A DNA stretch of 64,000 nt, taken from contig NC_085141.1 of the NCBI RefSeq assembly GCF_024139115.2, positions 218,897,783 to 218,961,782 on the forward strand. The letters are read 5' to 3'. The translations under genes and the position numbers were made by a program. Within the stretch, counting starts at the first letter, position 1, and each line of letters starts with the position of its first letter. Positions 9,421 to 64,000 of the stretch are shown here, one piece after another. A model generated the notes under the pieces. That model was not told the origin of the DNA, searched no databases, and was given only the letters and a program-made list of their open reading frames with translations. The stretch comes from Armigeres subalbatus (Eukaryota; Arthropoda; Insecta; Diptera; Culicidae).

Positions 9421-10310
9421 TCAGCAGTTCACTCTACAGACCCGACAAAGTAGCAATGCTGAGCAGATACCGGCAGCAGCAGCAGAGTCGAGCCGAGACC
9501 GGCCGGCATCGGTGCTGAGCCGAGACAGGCTGAAGAAAAGCCACATGATGCAGCATGTATGTCCAAAAACAAACGGTTCTTCAGAGAGCCAATAATAGAG
9601 ATCAATATCAATGCTTTCAATACCCTTCGGGATAGAAATTGTACTTGGGTGCCAAATCCAATATTCTAGAGATAAAATTTTATGCGTGATTTTCATAAAT
9701 AGCGTCAAAACTAACAGTGGATAATTTTTCTGATTTAACCGCGAAGTGGACGAAGGACTTCGCTTGACCATGCCTTTAAAGATTCATAAGATGTCCAAAT
9801 CTCTCACATAATCTTATTTGGATAAAAAACACCGATAACAGCTCAAGCATTAATAAACTATCAATCGATTTTTCATCAAATGTTGGATTTTTTGGCATTG
9901 ATCAAGAAATATCTAGATAAACATTGTTTGCTACTGACCGCACACAAAGCGAACGTGACTGAATGATCGTCCATTCTAAATCTTATCACTAGAAATCCCA
10001 TGTCCGGGTGTTTCCTTCCTTCTACTACTAACAATGTTGTCTCAGAAAAAAAAGACGTACTTCTCACCTGAACTGCAATTCTAAGCTCGCTTGCCCGGCT
10101 TATTGGCCTGTATCTAGCGAAAAGTCCCGTTAGGTAATAGACGCCAGCAGCGAGCAACAAGCGTAAAAAAAAGAAGCCCTTCTCGAACGCGTTGATGATG
10201 ATGACGCTTTGGCTGACAAAGAAGCGGGATACAAGACACTGGCTGATTTTGGCCCACCAATTGGGAAGCAGAGAAGATTCAAAATAAGGTATAAAAGAAA
10301 AGTGCATTCG

Positions 10311-11530
10311 AGTGGACGATCACATCTTGATGTGGATAGACGCGTGTGTTCACTCGGAGTTTAGCTTTGTTGTTGTTTTTATCGTGCGCGATATACGATA
10401 CTGCCGATTACAATGTCTGGCATAGTCGCTGTGAAAAACACGCTGGCGTTTTTGTTTCCCGACGGTGCCTCTCAACCATCTTTGGCTGATATGGCCCGTT
10501 TCGTGAAAACATTGAAAAGTGATAAGCTGTCGATGGAAACAGCGTACAAAATAGCCGATGAGAAATCCGTATTTATTCGTTTTAAAAGTGTGGAGGCAAT
10601 GGAAAATACTTTGCGAAACAATGATGAGATGCTACCGTTTCATTACGCCAATGGAAAGATGGTAACGGTGCATATGAACGTAGCCGGAGGAAATACTCGG
10701 TATGTGAGAATTTTTGATCTGCCGCCGGAAATTTCGGATTCCGATTTATCATCCGTGATATCAAGATTCGGTAAAGTTAAACGCGTAGTACGTGAGCGGT
10801 TCCCAGCAGAATACGAACTTGATATGTTCACTGGAGTCCGTGGCGTTTATGTGGAAGTTGAAAAGGAGATTCCGGAAATTCTATATTTTCGAAATCTTAA
10901 AGGAAGAATTTTCTACCAAGGGTTAAAACCAAAATGCTTCATTTGCAAAGCCGACTCGCATATGAGAAAGTCGTGCCCGGTGGTGCTAGAACGACGGAGC
11001 ACGTTACAGCGAACGAACAAAGAGCTTGCTGATAATATAGCAAAACAAGTCACAAAAAAGATAGAAGTTAGTGCTGTTGCCGTCGATCCAGTTGCGCACG
11101 GCAGTGGAACACAAAAGACCAACAAATTGGGAAAGAATGCGAAAAAAATAATAGCTAAGCGACAACGTTCATCTGGCGCGGAGTGTGCAGATATCGAATC
11201 GAAAAGCGCAAACGAACCATCATCGAACGAGAAAACAATCAGTTCTGTCATCGTTCCGAACGCAACGCCTGAGAGGACGAGGTGTAGAATCCCTTCATAT
11301 GAATGGATAGAAGACGCAGACGAACGACGGGAGGTGATAGCATACGATAAGATTAGATTAGCCACGTTTATGAATTTGAATGTGGATGAAATTGAATTTT
11401 ATATTGATAACTAGATTAAAACGATTGTATTGTATTATCATTGTAATGCATCAGATTTGTGGCTCTGCAAAGTGTTTTGTTGCACGACTGAGCCTTTAAA
11501 TAAACTACATGGTAAAAAAAAAAAAAAAAA
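10311..11530 (+). mobile_element. ORF1-only poly(A) retroposon (half-LINE) with 18-bp target duplication
   Basis: The insert lies between perfect copies of AAAAGAAAAGTGCATTCG at 10293-10310 and 11531-11548 and ends in about 17 A residues preceded by AATAAA (about 11499-11504). It has a 102-bp leader, one intact gag-like ORF and a 99-bp 3' UTR; there is no endonuclease or reverse transcriptase. AGACGCG at +28 to +34 of the leader differs by one base from the downstream promoter element consensus used by Jockey- and I-type elements. The perfect duplication, A-tail and intact frame indicate a recent insertion made in trans by another non-LTR machinery. Confidence 0.9.
10413..11414 (+). CDS. Gag-like ORF1 nucleic-acid-binding protein (333 aa) of a non-LTR retroposon
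   Basis: Intact ORF with a start context of TTACAATG. The N-terminal 90 residues (SVFIRFKSVEAM) and residues about 97-170 (YVRIFDLPPEISD ... KVKRVVRERF ... VRGVYVEVEKEIP) look like two RRM-type folds as found in ORF1 proteins of several non-LTR clades. A single CCHC knuckle, CFICKADSHMRKSC, lies at residues 175-188. A Lys/Arg-rich linker (KLGKNAKKIIAKRQRS, about 237-252) could bind RNA or act as nuclear signal, and the C terminus is acidic (EWIEDADERRE). The expected role is binding of the element RNA into an RNP. It is the only intact long frame in the window that looks like a real protein from start to stop. No ORF2 follows; the transcript ends 99 bp downstream. Clade (L1-like or Jockey-like) is not settled. 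Confidence 0.85.
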   Translation: MSGIVAVKNTLAFLFPDGASQPSLADMARFVKTLKSDKLSMETAYKIADEKSVFIRFKSVEAMENTLRNNDEMLPFHYANGKMVTVHMNVAGGNTRYVRIFDLPPEISDSDLSSVISRFGKVKRVVRERFPAEYELDMFTGVRGVYVEVEKEIPEILYFRNLKGRIFYQGLKPKCFICKADSHMRKSCPVVLERRSTLQRTNKELADNIAKQVTKKIEVSAVAVDPVAHGSGTQKTNKLGKNAKKIIAKRQRSSGAECADIESKSANEPSSNEKTISSVIVPNATPERTRCRIPSYEWIEDADERREVIAYDKIRLATFMNLNVDEIEFYIDN

Positions 11531-11644
11531 AAAAGAAAAGTGCATTCGCTCGCAGAGCATTCAGTCTTTTTTATACCACCACTAGAAATTCGCGGTTATT
11601 AGAAAAGATCGTTTTCTTACTTTTTACACTTAGCCGAAGCAAAC

Positions 11645-11660: not shown

Positions 11661-12240
11661 CTAAGCGTTAAAAATAATGTTCTCCTCCAGTCGCTATCGC
11701 ACGGATTAGAGGGCCCTTCAGTGGAAGGGCTGAGATACAGTCTACATCCCCTGCTGAGCCAACTTGTGGTTTATTTCAGGCAGTCCTGAGAAGGTTGCCA
11801 GATACTTCCTGAATTTTTTTGATGATTTTTGTTCGAGGTAGATTTGATTTCTGTGTCGGTTTGATGAGAAGATTTTGCCAAGGAATGGTATGCAACGCCG
11901 ATTATTTATCCAAAATAGTTTATGTGATAAATTTGGACATATTATGTATCTTAAAGGCATGGTCAAGTCAAGTCCTACGTCCACTTAGCGGTTTTGTCAT
12001 AGACATTACCCACTGTTCGTTTTTACTCAGGAAATTGAAACACGTGAGAGTCACAACAGCAGATCGAACTGGCAGGCCTCCGGTAACGCTTAACACCTGT
12101 CACCTATACCGGTGGGTAGTAGGTTCAGATGTAACATTCCTGATCTACGTCGATCCGGCTCTGAACACAGTGCTATAAGGCACCGGAGTCAACCCTTGCA
12201 TGGACCTCACTGTTTACAAAGGCACCCATGGGATCCCAAA

Positions 12241-13630
12241 ATGCGACTATCTACAACAGGTAGAGATAACGGCCCGGAGGGGGGACCCTATGGAAACGAA
12301 TACAAAAACAACAAAGGAGCAGGCGGAGCAATTGTTTTCGCAAAAAGTGGGAAGCTGCAGCGATCTCCAGTGATGGCGCAGGCAGCAGTAGCAAGTACCA
12401 GCACTTTGGCCAAGACTTCTGAGAACCAGGCAGGCCAAAAGGAGCTAGGATCCGAGAATAGGGTGTCCACACCAAAATCGGCAAGTAGTGTTATTCAGGA
12501 GGAACTACAACTTGGGAGGTCCAACCTGATGGAGGTGCGGAAGCGAGTCAACGAGCTTTATGACTTCGTGAAGGACAAACACAATGTCCACACTAAGATA
12601 AAGGTTCTAGTGACGAGCATCAAATCCGCCGTTAAAGCTGCCGAGCACGAACAGAACGCGCTCAAAGGAAGAGTTGAAGCAGCTGAGAAAACTCTGAGAG
12701 AGGGAGCGGAGCATACAGCAGACACCAATAAGCATCCAAAATACTCGCACAGAGAAGCGAAGCAGGGACTCACCAGGAGAGCAGGAAGTCCCGAAGAAGC
12801 AGCGGAACGTGCACGATTGTAGAAAGCCAGCGAGATAAGAGGAAGAAGCAGAAGGTGACTGTGGAAAAGAAGAAGGAACAGAAGAAGAAAGAAAAACGTA
12901 GATCTCCACAGGAGAGGGTCAAGGGCGACGCCCTGATCATCGAAGCGAGCGATAGGACGACGTATGCAGCAATCTTAAGGAAAGTGAGAGAAAACCCGGA
13001 TCTCAAGGACTTGGGAGAGAAAGTAGTGAGGACTAGGCGTACCCAGAAGGGGGAGTTGCTGTTCGAGCTGAAGAAAGATCCAACAATCAAAAGCTCGGCC
13101 TTCCGGGAGCTCGTTGTCAATTCCTTGGGCAGTGAAGCAAACGTAAGAGCTCTTACACAGGAGGCAGTAGTCGAGTGCAGAGACCTGGACGAGATTACGT
13201 CGAAAGACGAACTGAGACTCTTGTCTCGCAATGTATGCTGAGTGAGGTGCAGATGACGATCCGGCTGAAGAAAGCGTACGGTAGTACACAAGTAGCAGCG
13301 ATACGATTACCAGCAGTTGCTGCCAACAAAATGGTGGAGGTGGGCGAGGTGAAAGTCGGATGGTCGGTGTGCCCGCTGAGACTCACTCCGCGGGTCACCA
13401 AAGAGATGGAGCGATGCTTCAAATGCATGGCGTTTGGACACCAGGCGCGAAACTGCAAAGGTCCGGATAGATCCGGTCTATGTAGAAAATGTGGCGAAAA
13501 AGGACACGTTGCTAGGGACTGTACGAAGCAACCGAGATGCCTGCTCTGCAAATCGGAGGATGGAAACGACCATACGACGGGTGGCTTCCAATGCCCTGCA
13601 TACAAGAAGGCGATGACGGGCCGGGATTAA
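12241..13630 (+). pseudogene. R1-clade ORF1 (gag-like), frameshifted
   Basis: Three successive frames make one gag-like protein: 12241-12822 (alpha-helical region around LYDFVKDKHNVHTKIK), 12855-about 13215 (Lys-rich start, then YAAILRKVREN and LRVRTRR-like segments before LDEITSKDEL), and about 13215-13630. The last part has two CCHC knuckles, CFKCMAFGHQARNC and CRKCGEKGHVARDC, and a third CxxC...H...C unit, CLLCKSEDGNDHTTGGFQC, the triple knuckle typical of R1-clade ORF1. A stop at 12820-12822 and a frame change near 13215 inactivate it. The corresponding protein of the second R1 copy (19177-20718) has the same block order. Confidence 0.8.
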
Positions 13631-13639
13631 TGGAGATCA

Positions 13640-14990
13640 TATCAATCATTGCGACAACGCACAGCAACTGTTGTGGCAGTCGACAACAGAAGCAATGTGC
13701 GACGTGGCAATTATTGCTGAGCCGTACCGGATCCCTTCTTACAACGGCAACTGGGTGGCGAATGTTACGGGGATTGCGGCTATCCAAGTGATGGGCAGAT
13801 TCCCTATCCAAGAGGTGGTAGACAGCTCTAACGAAGGTTTTGTTGTCGCCAAAACCAACAGGATCTTCGTGTGAAGCACTTCGAGTTGACAGCGGCGCAA
13901 CAAATCTGGAAGCAGATGAACTGACGGAAACGTTAGCGAGGGCTTGCGATGCGTCGATGCCAAGGAAAATGGAGTCATTGGACATCCGACGCTAAATTAC
14001 TGGTGGAATGAATCTCTTGTCAATCTTCGTGCTGGCTGTTTCAAGGCCAGGAGACGTTTTCAGAGGGCAAGGTCTGAAACGGTAAGAGAAGGGCGTAAGA
14101 TAGTTTTTCGGGAAGCTAGAGCGGCTTTCAAACGGGAGATCAAAGTCAGCCAGTCCAACTGCTTCAAGCAGTTGTGCCAAGAAGCTGACGCTGATCCTTG
14201 GGGCAATGCTTATCGTGTGACAATAACGAAAATCAAGGGTCGGGTGACGCCAGCGGAGATGTGTCCGAACAAGCTGAAGATCATCGTGGACGGTCTTTTC
14301 CCGCAGCATGATTCTACGATGTGGCCGCCTGCACCGTACGAAGATGAAGACCAAGTCACCATTGCAGGTATGCAACTGCCTGGAATGCGGGTTCCTGGCT
14401 ATTTGTGTAGAATCCTTAAGAGCTACTTCGAAAACCGGATTCTGGTCTACGATACGAATTCGGGGCAGAAGTCGATTAGGGTTATGGCGGGTGTTCCGCA
14501 AGGCTCCATACTTGGCCCAATGTTGTGGAACGTTATGTACAACGGAGTGCTAAAGCTGAAGTTGCCCAAAGGCGTGAAGATCTTCGGATTCGCGGATGAT
14601 GTCGTTCTAACGATAACCGGAGAGTCGCTGGAAGAGGTAGAAATGCTGGTGGCGGAGACGACCGACGCAGTTGAAAACTGGATGAATGGAGTCAAGCTGC
14701 AGCTTGCTCACCACAAAACAGAAGTGATGCTGGTCAGCAACTGCCGAATCATACAGCGAATGCCGATTATCGTCGGAGAGCACGACATACCGTCCGTGCG
14801 GGCTTTGAGGCATCTAGGAGTGATGATCGACGACCGTTTGAATTTCAACACCCATGTCGACTATTCCTGCGAGAAGGCGGCTAAGATGGTCACTGCGATC
14901 ATGCCGAACGTTGGCGGACCGAGAGGCAGCTGTGGGCGTCTTCTGGCGACCGTATTATCCTCAATACTGAGGTACGGCGTTCTAGCATGA
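13640..14990 (+). pseudogene. R1-clade ORF2 (endonuclease/RT), with internal deletions
   Basis: The opening NHCDNAQQLLWQ and DVAIIAEPYRIP (about 13650-13740) is the N terminus of the apurinic-type endonuclease. Near 13870 the frame jumps to the linker before the RT (NYWWNESLVNLRAGCFKARR). The RT begins only at GVPQGSILGP (about 14490) and has the catalytic box FGFADDVVLTI (about 14585) followed by ALRHLGVMIDD. RT blocks 1-3 that should precede GVPQGS are missing, deleted at about 14365 in frame. The end at 14990 is a stop; the Cys-His tail seen in the other R1 copy is absent. Inactive. Confidence 0.8.
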
Positions 14991-43051: not shown

Positions 43052-46000
43052 TCAGACTAAGGCCGGAGTGGCCTGTGCTGCACATAAAAGACTTCTCCAT
43101 TCAGCTCGGTTCATGGCTGCACTTCGCCAACCACGCAGTCTGCGGAGGGTCCGCAAGTCGTCCTCCACCTGATCGATCCACCTTGCCCGCTGTGCACCTC
43201 GCCTTCTTGTTCCCGTCGGATCGTTGTCGAGAACCATTTTCACCGGATTACTGTCCGACATTCTGGCTACGTGCCCGGCCCACCGCAGTCTTCCGATTTT
43301 CGCGGTGGATGGTTCTCCCAACAGCTGATGCAACTCGTGGTTCATTCGCCTCCTCCACGTACCGTCCGCCATCTGCAACCCACCATAGATGGTACGCAAC
43401 ACTTTCCTTTCGAAAACTCCCAGTGCGCGTTGGTCCTCCACGAGCATCGTCCAGGTCTCGTGTCCGTAGAGGACTACCGGTCTAATGAGCGTTTTGTAGA
43501 TAGTCAGTTTGGTACGGCGGCGAACTCTATTCGATCGGAGCGTCTTACGGAGTCCAAAGTACGTACGATTTCCAGCCACTATGCGTCTCCGAATTTCTCT
43601 GCTGGTATCGTTATCGGCGGTCACCAGTGAGCCCAAGTACACGAATTCTTCAACCACCTCGATTTCGTCACCACCGATAGAAACCCGTGGTGGGTGGCTC
43701 ACATTGACCTCTCTTGAGCCTCTTCCTATCATGTACTTCGTCTTCGACGTGTTGATGACTAGTCCAATCCGTTTAGCTTCGCTTTTCAATCTGATGTAGG
43801 CTTCCTCCATCCTCTCAAAGTTACGTGCCATGATATCAATGTCGTCGGCGAAACCAAATAACTGGACGGACTTCGTGAAAATCGTACCACTCGTGTCAAT
43901 CCCTGCCCTTCGTATTACTCCCTCCAAAGCGATGTTGAATAGCAGACACGAAAGACCATCACCTTGCCGTAACCCTCTACGGGTTTCGAAGGGACTCGAG
44001 AATGCCCCTGAAACTCGAACTACGCACATCACCCGATCCATCGTCGCCTTGATCAACCGTATCAGTTTATCCGGAAATCCGTTTTCGTGCATTAGCTGCC
44101 ATAGCTGGTCCCGATCGATTGTATCATATGCGGCTTTGAAGTCGATAAATAGATGATGTGTGGGCACGTTGTATTCGCAGCATTTCTGCAATACCTGACG
44201 TATGGCGAACACCTGGTCTGTGGTAGAGCGTTCACCCATAAAACCCGCCTGGTACTGCCCCACGAACTCTCTTGCAATTGGTGTTAGTCGACGGCATAAA
44301 ATTTGGGAGAGTACCTTGTAGGCGGCGTTCAGCAATGTGATTGCGCGGTAGTTGCTACAATCCAGCTTATCGCCCTTTTTGTAGATGGGACACACGACAC
44401 CTTCCATCCACTCCTGCGGCAGAACCTCATCCTCCCAAACCTTGGTAATCACCCAGTGCAGCGCTCTAGCCAGTGCTTCACCACCGTGTTTAAACAGCTC
44501 TCCTGGTAGTTGGTCAACTCCAGGGGCTTTGTTGTTTTCAGCCGGCCGATCTCCTCCTGGATTTCCTGGAGATTCGGAGCCGGAAGTCGCATGTCCTGCG
44601 CGCGTGCTCCTAGGTTCATTACCATACCGCCACCGTTGTCTGCCATATCGCCATTCAGGTGCTCTTCGTAGTGCTGCCGCCACCTTTGGATCACCTCACG
44701 CTCGTTCGTAAGAAGGTTCCCGTTTATGTCCTTACACATATCGGGCTGTGGCACGTAGCCCTTACGTGAACGGTTCAACTTCTCATAGAACTTTCGTGCG
44801 TTATTAGCGCGGTACAGTTCCTCCGTCTCTTCACGGTCTCGATCATCCTGCTGGCGCTTTTTCCTCCGGAAAATCGAGTTTTGTCTGTTCCGCGCCCGTT
44901 TGTATCGTGCCTCGTTCGCCCTCGTGCGGTGTTGCAGCAATCTCGCCCATGCTGCATTCTTCTTCTCAACTAACTGCTCACATTCGCCGTTTCTCTGATC
45001 CGGAGCCACCGTGCCTAGTGCAGCAGTTGCGGTGCTTCCAATGGCGGATCGAATATCTCTCCAGCCATCTTCAAGAGATGCTGCGCCTAGCTGCTCTTCC
45101 GTTGGGAGTGCCACTTCCAGCTGCTGCGCGTAGTCTTGGGCTAGTCTACCGTCTTGTAGCCGCCCAATGTTAAGCCGCGGCGGACGACTCCGACGCGTGT
45201 TGATCACCGTCGAGAGTTTTGAGCGCAGACATACTGCAACGAGGTAGTGGTCGGATTCAATATTCGCACTGCGGTAAGTGCGTACGTTCGTGATGTCGGA
45301 GAAGAATTTACCGTCGATTAGAACGTGGTCGATTTGGTTTTCCGTTACTTGATTAGGTGATTTCCATGTGGCCTTGTGGATATTCTTACGGGGGAAGAAA
45401 GTGCTTCGGACTACCATTCCGCGGGAGGCTGCAAAGTTTATGCATCGTTGGCCGTTGTCGTTCGATACGGTATGCAGACTATCCGGTCCGATGACCGGTC
45501 TATACATTTCCTCCATTCCTACCTGAGCGTTCATGTCACCGATGACGATTTTGACGTCCCGCAGTGGGCATCCATCGTATGTCTGCTCCAGCTGCGCATA
45601 GAACGCTTCTTTCTCGTCGTCGGATCTCCCTTCGTGTGGGCAGTGCACGTTGATGATGCTATAGTTGAAGAAACGGCCTTTTATCCTCAGCTTGCACATC
45701 CTTGCGTTGATTGGCTGCCACCCTATCACGCGTTGGCGCATCTTTCCCAGCACTATGAAGCCGGTTCCCAGCTCGTTGGTGGTGCCACAGCTTTGGTAGA
45801 AGGTAGCCGCTCGATGCCCGCTTTTCCACACTTTCTGTCCTGTCCAGCAGATTTCCTGCAGCGCTACGACATCGAAGTTGCGGGATGTAATTCATCGTAG
45901 ATTATCCTATCGCAACCTGCGAAGCCTAGCGACTTGTAGTTCCATGTTCCAAGCTTCCAATCGTGATCCTTTATTCGTCGCCTAGGTCGTTGCCGATTGT

Positions 46001-52252: not shown

Positions 52253-53655
52253 AAATCCAAATCCAATCCAATCCAAATCCAATCCAAAACAAATCTAAAT
52301 CCAATCCAAAACAAATCTAAATCCAATCAAAAACAAATCTAAATCCAATCCAAAACAAATCTAAATCCAATCCAAATCCAACTCAAATCCAAATCCAAAT
52401 CCAAAACAAATCTAAATCCAATCCAAATCCAATTCAAATCCAAATCCAATCCAAATACAATCCAAATCCAATCCAAATCCAAGCCCAATCCAAAACCAAT
52501 CCAAATCATATCCAAATCCAATCCAAATCTAATCCAAATCCAATCCAAATCCAATCCAAATCCAATCCAAATCCAATCCAAATCCAATCCAAATCCATCC
52601 AAACCAATCCAAACCAATCCAAACCAATCCAAATCAATCCAAACCAATCCAAACCAATCCAAATCCAATCCAAATCCAATCCAAATCCAATCCAAATCCA
52701 ATCCAAATGTAATTCAAATGCAATACAAATCGAATCCAAATCGAATCCAAACCCAATCTAAATACAATTCAAATCCAATCCAAATCCAATCCAAATCCAA
52801 TCCAAATCCAATCCAAATCCAATCCAAATCCAATCCAAATCCTATCCAAATCCCATCCAAATCCAATCCAAATCCAATCCAATCCAAATCCAATCCAAAC
52901 CAAATCCAAATACAATCCAAATCCAATCCAAATCCAATCCAAATCCAATCCAAATCCAATCCAATCCAAATCCAATCCAAAACAAATCCAAATACAATCC
53001 AAATACAATCCAAATACAATCCAAATCCAATCCAAATCCAAGCCCAATCCAAAACCAATCCAAATCATTTCCAAATCCAATCCAAATCTAATCCAAATCC
53101 AATCCAAATCCAATCCAAATCCAATCCAAATCCAATCCAAATCCAATCCAAATCCAATCCATATCGAATCAAAATCCAAATCGAATCTAAATACAATCCA
53201 AATCCAATCCAAATCCAATCTAAATCCAATCCAAATCCAATCCAAATCCAATCCAAATCCAATCCAAATCCCATCCAATCCAATCCAAATCCAAATACAA
53301 TCCAAATCCAATCCAAATCCAATCCAAATCCAATCCAAATCCAATCCAAATCCAATCCAATCCAAAACAAATCCAAATACAATCCAAATCCAATCCAAAC
53401 CCAATCCAAATGCAATCCAAATCCAATCCAAATCAAGTCCAAATCCAATCCAAATCCAATCCAAATCCAATCCAAGTCCAATCCAAATCCAATCCAAATC
53501 CAATCCAAATCTTATTCAAATCCAAATCGAATCAAAATCCAAATCCAATCCAAATCCAAACAAAATCCATTCCAAATCCAATCCAAATCCAATCCAAATC
53601 CAATTCAAATCCAATCCAAATCTAATCCAAATCCAATCCAAATCCAATTAAGATT
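52253..53655. repeat. 1.4-kb array of the 11-bp unit CCAATCCAAAT
   Basis: About 125 units with variants (AAACCAATCC, AAAACAAATCC, CAAATACAATCC). Segments are themselves duplicated: CCAAGCCCAATCCAAAACC starts at 52481 and again at 53039, followed by the same variant order. Because 11 is not a multiple of 3, every frame reads the same 11-residue repeat, and stop codons are rare on both strands. The frames of 322 (plus) and 244 (minus) codons are artefacts. Confidence 0.95.
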
Positions 53656-58326: not shown

Positions 58327-60288
58327 CAGGGGTTCTCAACCTGGGGTACATGTACCCCTGGGGGTACCTTCGCTGGCCTTAGGGGGTACCTCGGACAAAA
58401 ATGCGTAATGGCGGATGCATTACAATTCCAATCAAAATTAATTGATAAAGTGTAATGTTTTCAATTTCAAAACATTGTCTTGTACATAATATGCATAAGT
58501 AAATCAAAGCCTATTGAATCCTGCCCTCCACAACTCGCTCAGTGTATGAAGGACTGTGGACAACAGATCAAAAGCACAAAACGTCGAATGAACATTTTTT
58601 CAAAATTTCAATGTGATTGAAACAAAATGTTGAATACTATGTTAAAAATATGTTTCCGAACTAAAATCTTGAGTCTTAAGGTCCGGAAACCACAATTTGA
58701 GAGACATGCAGTTTTTTTTTCTCGAAAAGCTCAGTTGCTTCTTTGCAAAACGTTTGGAAGCATTCTTCTATGCTTCTCAAAACCTCTTTCCAAGCAGCTC
58801 AGGAGCCAGCTTTCAAGAGGCTCGAAGATGCCTCTTTCAAGAGGCCCTTTCAAAAGATTCGGAAGCCTACTTTCAAGAGTTTTGAAAGCCTCCTTTCAAG
58901 GGACTCAGAATTTTTCTTTTAAGAGGCTCAGAACCCTCCTTTTAAGGGGCTTGGAAGCCTATTTTTAAAAGGCCCGGAAGCCTCCTTTCAACAGGTCCGG
59001 AAGCCTCCTTTCAAGAGGTCTGAAAGGCTTTTTTCAAGTATCCCGGAAGCCTTCTTCCAAGAGGCCCGAAACCCTCCTCCCAAGAGGTCCGAAAGGCTCC
59101 TTCCAAGAGGCCTGGAAGCCACGTTTTAAAAGGCCCGGAAGTCTCCTTTCAAGAGGCCTGGAAGCCACATTCCACGAGGCACGAAAGTCTCCTTTATAGA
59201 GGCCTGGTAGCCTCCTTTCAAGAGGCCCGGAAGCTTCCTTTCAAGAGGCCCGAAACCCTCCTGCCAAGAGGCCCGGAAGCTTCCTTTCAAGAGGCCCGAA
59301 ACCCTCCTGCCAAGAGGTCCGAAAGCTTCCTTTCAAGAGGCCCGGGAACCTTCTTTCAAGAGGTCCGGAAACCTCCTTTCAAGAGGCTCGGAAGCCTCCT
59401 TTCAACAGGCCCGGAAGCCTCCTTTCAAGACGACCAAAAGGCTCCTTTCAAGTGGCCCGGAATCCTTCTTCCAAGAGGCCCGAAACCCTCCTCCCAAGAG
59501 GTCCGAAAGGCTCTTTCAAAGAGGCCCGGAAGCCTTCTTCTAAGAGGCCCGGAAGCCTCCTTTCAAGAGGCCAAGAAGCCACGTTTAAAAGGTCAGACAG
59601 TCTCCTTTCAAGATGCCCGGAAGCCTCCTCCCAAGAGGTCCGAAAGGTTCCTTTTAAGTGGCGCGAAGGCCTCGTTACAAAACGCCTGTAAGCTACTCTC
59701 AAAAGGCTCCAAGGCCTCCTTTTAAGAGGCTCGGAAACATTCTTTCAAGAGGCTCGGAAGCCTTTTTTATAAAAGCTTGGATGGCTCCTTTCAAGATGCT
59801 CGAAATGCTCCTTTCAAGAAGCTCAAAGCCTCATTTCAAGCGGCTCAAGTGATTCGAAAGCCTCCTTTCAAGAGGCTCGAAAGACTTGTTTCAAGAGGCT
59901 CGGAAGTCTCCCTTCAATTGGTTCGGAATTCTTCTTACAAGAGGCTTTTAAGCGATCTGTCAAGATGCTAAGAGGCCTTCTTTTAAGTGGCTTGAAAGCC
60001 GCCTATTAAGAGAATCGGAAGTCTTCTTTCAATAGGCTCGGAAGCCTCCTCCTAAAAGGTCCAATGGTCACGAAAGTCCTGTAGGAAGCTTGATCTATAC
60101 ACTTACGGAGTGATGAAAATTTTAGCCAACTTTTTGGAGAGCCATAAATCCCGTTAGGTTTCAGGTCTATTTTTCATATATGTTATGAGTTACGCTTTTT
60201 TTTTCATTTACAGCAAAAAATAGGAGGTACCTCAATTAATGAAAAAGTTCGAAGGGGTACCTCTCAAGAAAAGGGTTGAGAACCGCTG
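58327..60288. mobile_element. Non-autonomous hAT element (1962 bp) with 8-bp target duplication
   Basis: Flanked by perfect TCCTAGAC at 58319-58326 and 60289-60296. Ends are CAGGGGTTCTCAACCTGGGG and, read inward on the right, CAGCGGTTCTCAACCC; both then have GGTACC or GGTACCCC about 25-30 bases in. This is a classic hAT terminus (Charlie/MER5-like). No transposase: the interior is a 23-bp minisatellite. Confidence 0.9.
58700..60060 (+). repeat. 23-bp minisatellite inside the hAT element
   Basis: About 58 units of AAGAGGCCCGGAAGCCTCCTTTC with point changes. Frames of 60-113 codons over it are artefacts. Confidence 0.9.
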
Positions 60289-61630: not shown

Positions 61631-61808
61631 CAGCCCTGCCGTCCTTCTTAGTCACACTTGGTCGACAACTAAGAAGCTTTGCCCAAATCCAAAAATTTCT
61701 ATTAGTCTCTTTAGGCTATATGTGTGGATGTGAGCGTGTATGTGTGTACAAAAAATAGTGTGCCGTACGGCCGAACACCTTTACAGTCTCTTTAAAATGC
61801 TCCCACAG
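61631..61808 (+). repeat. 178-bp leader of the 95-bp array, copy 1
   Basis: CAGCCCTGCCGTCCTTCTTA through GTGTGGATGTGAGCGTGTAT to ATGCTCCCACAG; repeated almost without change at 62795-62972. Confidence 0.9.
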
Positions 61809-62685
61809 GTGCGGATTCGCACTGCTGCCGCCCTCATGGGTTCCAATGATGCACTGTTGGTTACTATCAACCCCCCCAAAGCCAACATTTTGTGCCTCCG
61901 CGGGCGCGGATTCGCACTGCTGCCGCCCTCATGGGTCTCAATGATGCACTGTTGGTTACTATCAACTCCCCTCAAAGCCAACATTTTGTGCTCCCGCAGG
62001 TGCGGATTCGCACTGCTGCCGCCCTCATGGGTTCCAATGATGCACTGTTGGTTACTATCAACTCCCCTCAAAGCCAACATTTTGTGCTCCCGCAGGTGCG
62101 GATTCGCACTGCTGCCGCCCTCATGGGTTCCAATGATGCACTGTTGGTTACTATCAACCCCCCCAAAGCCAACATTTTGCGCTCCCGCAGGTGCGGATTC
62201 GCACTGCTGCCGCCCTCATGGGTTCCAATGATGCACTGTTGGTTACTATCAACCCCTCCAAAGCCAACATTTTGCGCTCCCGCAGGTGCGGATTCGCACT
62301 GCTGCCGCCCTCATGGGTTCCAATGATGCACTGTTGGTTACTATCAACCCCCCCAAAGCCAACATTTTGCGCTCCCGCAGGTGCGGATTCGCACTGCTGC
62401 CGCCCTCATGGGTTCCAATGATGCACTGTTGGTTACTATCAACCCCCCCAAAGCCAACATTTTGCGCTCCCGCAGGTGCGGATTCGCACTGCTGCCGCCC
62501 TCATGGGTCTCAATGATGCACTGTTGGTTACTATCAACTCCCCTCAAAGCCAACATTTTGTGCTCCCGCAGGTGCGGATTCGCACTGCTGCCGCCCTCAT
62601 GGGTTCCAATGATGCACTGTTGGTTACTATCAACTCCCCTCAAAGCCAACATTTTGTGCTCCCGCAGGTGCGGATTCGCTATACC
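61809..62685 (+). repeat. 95-bp tandem array, first block (9 units)
   Basis: Unit starts GTGCGGATTCGCACTGCTGC and ends TGCGCTCCCGCAG. Nine full units and a truncated tenth that ends at GGATTCGC. Units differ mainly at GGTTCCAATG versus GGTCTCAATG and AACCCCCCCAAA versus AACTCCCCTCAAA. 95 is not a multiple of 3, so the frames rotate and the many frames of 76-163 codons on both strands are artefacts. Confidence 0.95.
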
Positions 62686-62794: not shown

Positions 62795-62972
62795 CAGCCC
62801 TGCCGTCCTTCTTAGTCACACTTGGTCGACAACTAAGAAGCTTTGCCCAAATCCAAAAATTTCTATTAGTCTCTTTAGGCTATATGTGTGGATGTGAGCG
62901 TGTATGTGTGTACAAAGTATAGTGTGCCGTACGGCCGAACACCTTTACAGTCTCTTTAAAATGCTCCCACAG
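62795..62972 (+). repeat. 178-bp leader of the 95-bp array, copy 2
   Basis: Second copy of 61631-61808; the offset of 1164 bp is the same for leader and array start. Confidence 0.9.
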
Positions 62973-64000
62973 GTGCGGATTCGCACTGCTGCCGCCCTCA
63001 TGGGTTCCAATGATGCACTGTTGGTTACTATCAACCCCCCCAAAGCCAACATTTTGCGCTCCCGCAGGTGCGGATTCGCACTGCTGCCGCCCTCATGGGT
63101 CTCAATGATGCACTGTTGGTTACTATCAACTCCCCTCAAAGCCAACATTTTGTGCTCCCGCAGGTGCGGATTCGCACTGCTGCCGCCCTCATGGGTTCCA
63201 ATGATGCACTGTTGGTTACTATCAACTCCCCTCAAAGCCAACATTTTGTGCTCCCGCAGGTGCGGATTCGCACTGCTGCCGCCCTCATGGGTTCCAATGA
63301 TGCACTGTTGGTTACTATCAACCCCCCCAAAGCCAACATTTTGCGCTCCCGCAGGTGCGGATTCGCACTGCTGCCGCCCTCATGGGTTCCAATGATGCAC
63401 TGTTGGTTACTATCAACCCCCCCAAAGCCAACATTTTGCGCTCCCGCAGGTGCGGATTCGCACTGCTGCCGCCCTCATGGGTTCCAATGATGCACTGTTG
63501 GTTACTATCAACCCCCCCAAAGCCAACATTTTGTGCTCTCGCAGGTGCGGATTCGCACTGCTGCCGCCCTCATGGGTCTCAATGATGCACTGTTGGTTAC
63601 TATCAACCCCCCTCAAAGCCAACATTTTGTGCTCCCGCAGGTGCGGATTCGCACTGCTGCCGCCCTCATGGGTTCCAATGATGCACTGTTGGTTACTATC
63701 AACTCCCCTCAAAGCCAACATTTTGTGCTCCCGCAGGTGCGGATTCGCACTGCTGCCGCCCTCATGGGTTCCAATGATGCACTGTTGGTTACTATCAACT
63801 CCCCAAAGCCAACATTGTGCGCTCCCGCAGGTGCGGATTCGCACTGCTGCCGCCCTCATGGGTGCCAATGATGCACTGTTGGTTACTATCAACCCCCCCA
63901 AAGCCAACATTTTGCGCTCCCGCAGGTGCGGATTCGCACTGCTGCCGCCCTCATGGGTTCCAATGATGCACTGTTGGTTACTATCCACCCCCAAAGCCAG
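62973..64000 (+). repeat. 95-bp tandem array, second block (runs off the window)
   Basis: At least 10.8 units. The first four units have the same variant order as the first four of block 1, so leader plus array was duplicated as one piece. Confidence 0.95.

Follow-up and report, generated by a model that had tools for sequence, protein, structure and literature searches.

Structure of the Element in the Window

The stretch of DNA analyzed here (the window, 64 kb) corresponds to C3:218,897,783–218,961,782 of the 1.34-Gb Armigeres subalbatus genome. On its forward strand lies a gag-only retroposon (10311–11530, +), which extends from the 5' end AGTGGACGATCAC to an A-tail, and copies elsewhere in the genome share both its start base and its tail. 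The element is flanked by the target-site duplication (TSD) AAAAGAAAAGTGCATTCG, whose left (10293–10310) and right (11531–11548) copies of 18 bp are identical at 18 of 18 positions. A leader of 102 nt precedes an intact ORF1/gag of 333 codons (10413–11414, +), identified as an open reading frame and further examined by dN/dS (see below), and a short 3' UTR follows it. The AATAAA polyadenylation signal is found at 11499–11504 (+), and the A-tail (11514–11530, +) runs into the four A of the right TSD. A preliminary description, made from the sequence of the window, had claimed a perfect 18-bp duplication, an A-tail with a polyadenylation signal, and an intact 333-codon ORF1 between a short leader and a short 3' UTR, and this layout is confirmed in every part. 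The possibility that an ORF2 lies further downstream was rejected, as the right TSD ends the insertion at 11548 and the tail is also where other copies stop.

No second copy of the element was found within the 64-kb window. Several other repeats are present in this region. Remains of another LINE (12094–14987, +) consist of a frame of 242 aa, for which Pfam gave no match, and then one of 356 aa that contains a reverse transcriptase (RT) domain; this older RT-bearing frame (13920–14987) is beyond the right TSD and outside the element. A LINE with a broken ORF2 (43052–45891, −) is represented by two frames that overlap and encode reverse transcriptase and endonuclease domains. Long tandem arrays with an 11-bp unit (~131 copies) and a 23/46/69-bp unit were observed at 52253–53648 and 58846–60050, and a 95-bp tandem repeat forms two blocks (61798–62679 and 62962–63999) that are 96% alike, the second of which reaches the end of the window.

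The Gag Protein

An AlphaFold2 model of the gag protein, built with 44 sequences (mean pLDDT 81, pTM 0.45), predicted two RRM-like domains at residues 8–90 (10434–10682, +) and 95–170 (10695–10922, +). They are followed by a CCHC zinc knuckle at residues 175–188 (10935–10976, +), in which C175, C178, H183, and C188 are invariant in 44 homologues, and by a predicted long helix, possibly a coiled coil, at residues 189–219 (10977–11069, +). Residues 223–283 are disordered in the model, and both conservation and the model suggest a small conserved C-terminal domain at residues 289–331 (11277–11405, +). Foldseek returned tandem-RRM proteins as the top matches of the model (E 5e-7); whole-chain TM-scores were only ~0.2, which would be expected if it is the single domains that match. 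Sequence searches against the PDB gave nothing firm, and Pfam matches to the RRM (in the second domain) and to the knuckle were weak (RRM_1 E 0.005, below its cut-off). The RRM/CCHC type proposed earlier for this protein agrees with the two RRM-like folds and the CCHC motif of the model, and Pfam supports it weakly.

Copies in the Genome

A genome DNA search with the window copy gave at least 56 matches (40 of 258 candidates scored), and a search with a diverged copy gave at least 72 (40 of 1230 candidates scored); these counts are lower bounds because only part of the candidates were scored. When grouped by place, the matches formed at least 68 locus clusters. Both ends are present in 47 of these, whereas 11 retain the 5' end alone, 7 the 3' end alone, and 3 lack both; one locus (L036) is entered twice because insertions inside its gag part its halves. 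The 47 clusters with both ends span 789–2305 bases (median 1211; ≤1300 in 42 of them) and are therefore too short for an ORF2. Identity to the window copy is 90–98% for the nearest copies, then 75–80%, then 67–74%, and these classes represent several subfamilies with common ends. L036 (C2:143060780–143067926) is itself a gag-only copy of ~6 kb whose ORF is split by several insertions, and short stretches of the query are duplicated where its pieces join; it has no match to the ORF2 of the Loner-type LINE described below.

Copies occupy internal positions on C1–C3 and carry TSDs. Both ends could be placed in 29 distinct loci. Of these, 19 have a perfect adjacent TSD of at least 10 bp (≤7 nt from the start), 3 have one of 8–9 bp, and 7 have none that passes. 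Because both ends recur in dozens of loci and TSDs are present in 19 of 29, these features are beyond chance. We also searched 36 distinct fetched loci (L001–L036) with the endonuclease, reverse transcriptase, and RNase H regions of the Loner-type LINE and found no ORF2 within the elements; the sole match (L008, 26% identity) has coordinates in the flank. This search detects only fairly similar ORF2s, and the TSDs and spans are the stronger argument.

The absence of ORF2 claimed in the preliminary description thus extends to all 47 clusters with both ends located. That description had also predicted many full-length copies with a fixed 3' end and no ORF2 behind them, which is what the genome search recovered. 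It had named two findings that would speak against a gag-only family: in what was searched, no relative carries an ORF2 between gag and tail, and the element is a multicopy family and not a single processed copy of a host gene. A single retrocopy was rejected on the same ground, that is, dozens of copies with the same ends.

Promoter-Like Layout at the 5' End

The 5' end of the element contains a putative internal Pol II promoter (10311–10343, +), which consists of an initiator whose +1 is the A of (C)AGT and of AGACGC at +28 (10338–10343), as judged from motif positions in the copies. Among 31 5'-complete copies (L008/L037 counted once), AGACG occurs at +28 to +32 in 25, and the base before the first A is a C in 28; in the window copy it is a G. 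This +1/+28 layout would correspond to the initiator and downstream promoter element that Jockey and I elements carry. In the Loner-type LINE, AGACG likewise lies at +28 from the A of CATT in four of four copies.

A 3' Tail Shared with a Loner-Type LINE

Alignment of 15 copies of the element revealed a conserved 3' block, GGCTC..GTGT..CACGACTGAGCC..AAATAAA..ATGGT (11453–11513, +), which was further investigated by a genome pattern count and a shuffle test. The exact pattern ACACGACTGAGCCTN{0,4}AAATAAA has 495 matches in the genome, and its reversed control has none. Among the first 50 of 100 places listed for this pattern (all on C1), 35 belong to one Loner LINE group, 6 to the gag element (one of which, L046, was so classed by a 38-residue match only), and 9 to neither; none of these 50 loci has both gag and the Loner ORF2. 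Six tail-pattern loci with neither gag nor a Loner LINE (L041, L052, L056, L082, L086, and L088) seemingly represent an additional family; in these, a common TAATATTT-type sequence comes after the motif in place of an A-tail.

The partner LINE is ~5.85 kb long and encodes endonuclease, reverse transcriptase, and RNase H domains (Pfam); its 5' end, CATTCC, is accompanied by a TSD of 12–15 bp in four of the six loci read, none of which has an unbroken ORF2 frame. Its ORF1, which contains three zinc knuckles, is 52% identical to its closest ORF1 relative, "Putative loner ele1" of Aedes albopictus. Judged from the Pfam domains and this ORF1 similarity, the partner is a Loner/I-type LINE.

The last ~60 nt of the gag element and of this LINE align with a local score of 42, compared with a maximum of 27 in 1000 shuffles. 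At the 5' ends no match was found (163 of 1000 shuffles score as high), and 5' homology between the element and Loner was rejected as no more than chance. Comparison of gag with the partner ORF1 by tblastn found nothing, and a profile comparison aligned only the zinc knuckle, with a probability of 38%. Homology between gag and the Loner ORF1 was also rejected, with nothing beyond the knuckle. Since neither the ORF1 nor the 5' end of the tail-sharing LINE is related to that of the element, the latter has the appearance of a foreign gag to which a hijacked tail has been joined, although the shared tail may instead reflect old common ancestry. An ORF2-bearing partner with the same 3' end, the search for which had been suggested in the preliminary description, does exist in the form of this Loner-type LINE, but its ORF1 and 5' end are unrelated to those of the element.

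In fish LINEs, ORF2 proteins are known to recognize a 3' stem-loop strictly (PMC4176376). The tail of the gag element can fold as a small hairpin or as an alternative stem, with a single-sequence z of −1.67. Covariation of the hairpin is not significant, as 310 of 500 shuffles score at least as high; the tail is too highly conserved for covariation to show, and the invariant alternative stem is preferred.

Origin of the Gag

At least 125 gag homologues were present among the matches listed in two protein searches. In a tree of 125 homologues and six genome ORFs, the element falls within a clade of 57 sequences (support 1.0). Clade members with a short-record contig (n = 46) all lie on contigs of at most 2403 bases (median 1298), and outside the clade contigs exceed 2.5 kb in 35 of 72 cases and 4 kb in 21 of 72 (Fisher p 6e-10), a comparison for which the clade was chosen post hoc as the largest without a contig >2.5 kb in a midpoint-rooted tree, with contigs that are mostly unnamed assemblies and with many outside members that are also short. 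The clade neighbors ORF1s on 4–5-kb contigs. This arrangement is suggestive of a gag that came from a 4–5-kb LINE and of a short form that is old, and the gag may thus be derived from the ORF1 of another LINE. The element had been called recent in the preliminary description; the window insertion fits this, with its perfect TSD and nearest copies at 97%, but the family itself appears to be old.

The same data bear on whether the element is a HAL1-like half-LINE that arose directly, by deletion, from an ORF1+ORF2 LINE which carried both this gag and the same tail, with no tail exchange. The 4–5-kb contigs of distant gag homologues have room for ORF1 and ORF2 (21 of the 72 contigs outside the short-contig clade are >4 kb), and a LINE of this kind that also bore the tail would make a swap unnecessary. 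On the other hand, the ORF2-bearing LINE which does carry the tail has an unrelated ORF1 by both tblastn and profile comparison, and gag and the Loner ORF2 occur together in none of the first 50 of 100 tail loci listed. We regard such a direct derivation as unlikely. The half-LINE of the preliminary description therefore stands as a gag-only retroposed family, but not as a plain deletion product of the LINE that shares its tail.

Selection on the Gag ORF

An intact ORF of 321–334 codons was found in 10 of the 36 distinct fetched loci. Between subfamilies, pairwise dN/dS (Nei-Gojobori) is 0.10–0.25 in 37 of 41 pairs and dS is saturated in the other four, with many of the measured dS values also >1 and saturated. 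A dN/dS below 1 had been proposed in the preliminary description as the sign of selection on the protein, and it was observed here. Four recent pairs together show 40.5 nonsynonymous versus 32.5 synonymous changes, where ~73% nonsynonymous would be expected (p 8e-4). Two of these pairs (L001/L003 and L018/L021) are individually significant (p <0.05), one (L009/L010) is marginal (p 0.06), and one (L011/L012) shows no constraint (p 0.64). These substitution patterns indicate that the gag ORF is kept by purifying selection, and the recent pairs imply that some source lineages, at least, still depended on the protein not long ago.

An intact frame under purifying selection could also belong to a domesticated host gag gene whose processed copies were spread by LINE machinery; TSDs and A-tails are typical of processed copies as well, and some relatives are annotated as genes by NCBI (P0003 and P0015). 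However, several subfamilies that are 67–97% alike, with several copies each, a promoter-like element at +28 inside the transcript, and a 3' end in common with a LINE are all unexpected for one gene, and we consider this origin the least probable of the explanations weighed here. Alternatively, gag could act mainly in trans, either by helping or blocking the Loner LINE or by shielding RNA from silencing, and selection would then come from that effect and not from the element's own RNA. Such a role would be compatible with an RNA-binding protein that differs from the partner's while the tail is the same, but the constraint among recent copies fits cis selection at least equally well, and a mainly trans-acting gag appears very improbable.

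Proposed Mode of Propagation

We think it likely that the element represents an old, non-autonomous, Pol II-transcribed, gag-only non-LTR family which encodes an RNA-binding protein itself and, via the shared tail, borrows the reverse transcriptase of a Loner-type LINE. In such a cycle, transcription would start at +1 from the initiator with its downstream element at +28, and the mRNA would be translated into the RRM-RRM-CCHC protein, which might coat its own RNA. The ORF2 protein of a Loner-type LINE would then recognize the 3' tail and, through target-primed reverse transcription, copy the RNA into a target that has been nicked. Mobilization by Loner-type machinery is what we infer from the common tail.

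In the human L1/Alu system, Pol II-driven Alu needs ORF1p besides ORF2p, and Pol III-driven Alu needs only ORF2p (PMC2666806). A plausible reason for the element to keep a gag is thus the dependence of Pol II transcripts on an ORF1 protein, which Pol III SINEs can do without. A further hypothesis, which we hold tentatively and rate at somewhat below an even chance, is that a single ancient culicine gag-only lineage has survived and branched out as a "protein-coding SINE" of obligate habit, that it combines a Pol II promoter and a gag with no kinship to the helper's gag with a stolen tail that taps Loner-type LINEs, and that its gag is kept by cis selection because of this need.

Comparison with Known Systems

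With an ORF1-type RNA-binding protein, no RT, and many copies that bear TSDs and A-tails, the element belongs among gag-only non-LTR elements. HAL1 of mammals encodes only ORF1p and is an L1 derivative that arose several times (PMC5753468). The element resembles HAL1 in being non-autonomous, in encoding only an ORF1 protein, and in having an A-tail and TSD (PMC5753468). Unlike HAL1, it has a gag with no relationship to the gag of the tail-sharing LINE, and its short form occupies one diverse clade; with Loner as the helper, it is not derived from the ORF1 half of that helper. HeT-A of Drosophila has no RT of its own (PMC5537684) and is likewise a gag-only insect non-LTR element. In contrast to HeT-A, which adds to chromosome ends, the element inserts internally with TSDs, and its copies do not form telomeric arrays.

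For the Gecko SINE of Aedes aegypti, the 3' tail is listed as that of LINEs of the I clade, MosquI among them (PMC3747384). Tail borrowing is common to Gecko and the element, whose 3' end is homologous to that of a LINE, and a conserved 3' stem-loop is a feature of stringent LINEs (PMC4176376). SINEs such as Gecko have tRNA-type promoters and no protein, whereas the element has a Pol II promoter-like 5' end and a gag; at 1.2 kb and with a protein ORF under selection, it does not match a short, non-coding SINE with a Pol III promoter. Its last ~60 nt and its promoter-like arrangement at +1/+28 recur in the Loner-type LINE, but the three-knuckle ORF1, the EN-RT-RNase H ORF2, and the 5' end of that LINE have no counterpart in the element.

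The Armigeres genome paper mentions TE totals. Among the open-licence papers searched, we did not find a gag that is under selection and has no relation to the gag of the helper combined with the helper's tail. Gag-only LINE derivatives are usually viewed as short-lived by-products of their parents, and here an intact, constrained gag is found in a short-form clade. If confirmed, the RNA packaging and the reverse transcription of a LINE would be split between two elements, which would make it testable why a Pol II-made parasite RNA needs its own ORF1 protein and SINEs do not. The element and the Loner LINE also offer a natural pair for testing whether a Loner/I-type reverse transcriptase recognizes a specific 3' tail. 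The kind of element is known from HAL1, HeT-A, and tail-sharing SINEs, and what sets this one apart is a gag unrelated to that of the putative helper, combined with the helper's tail.
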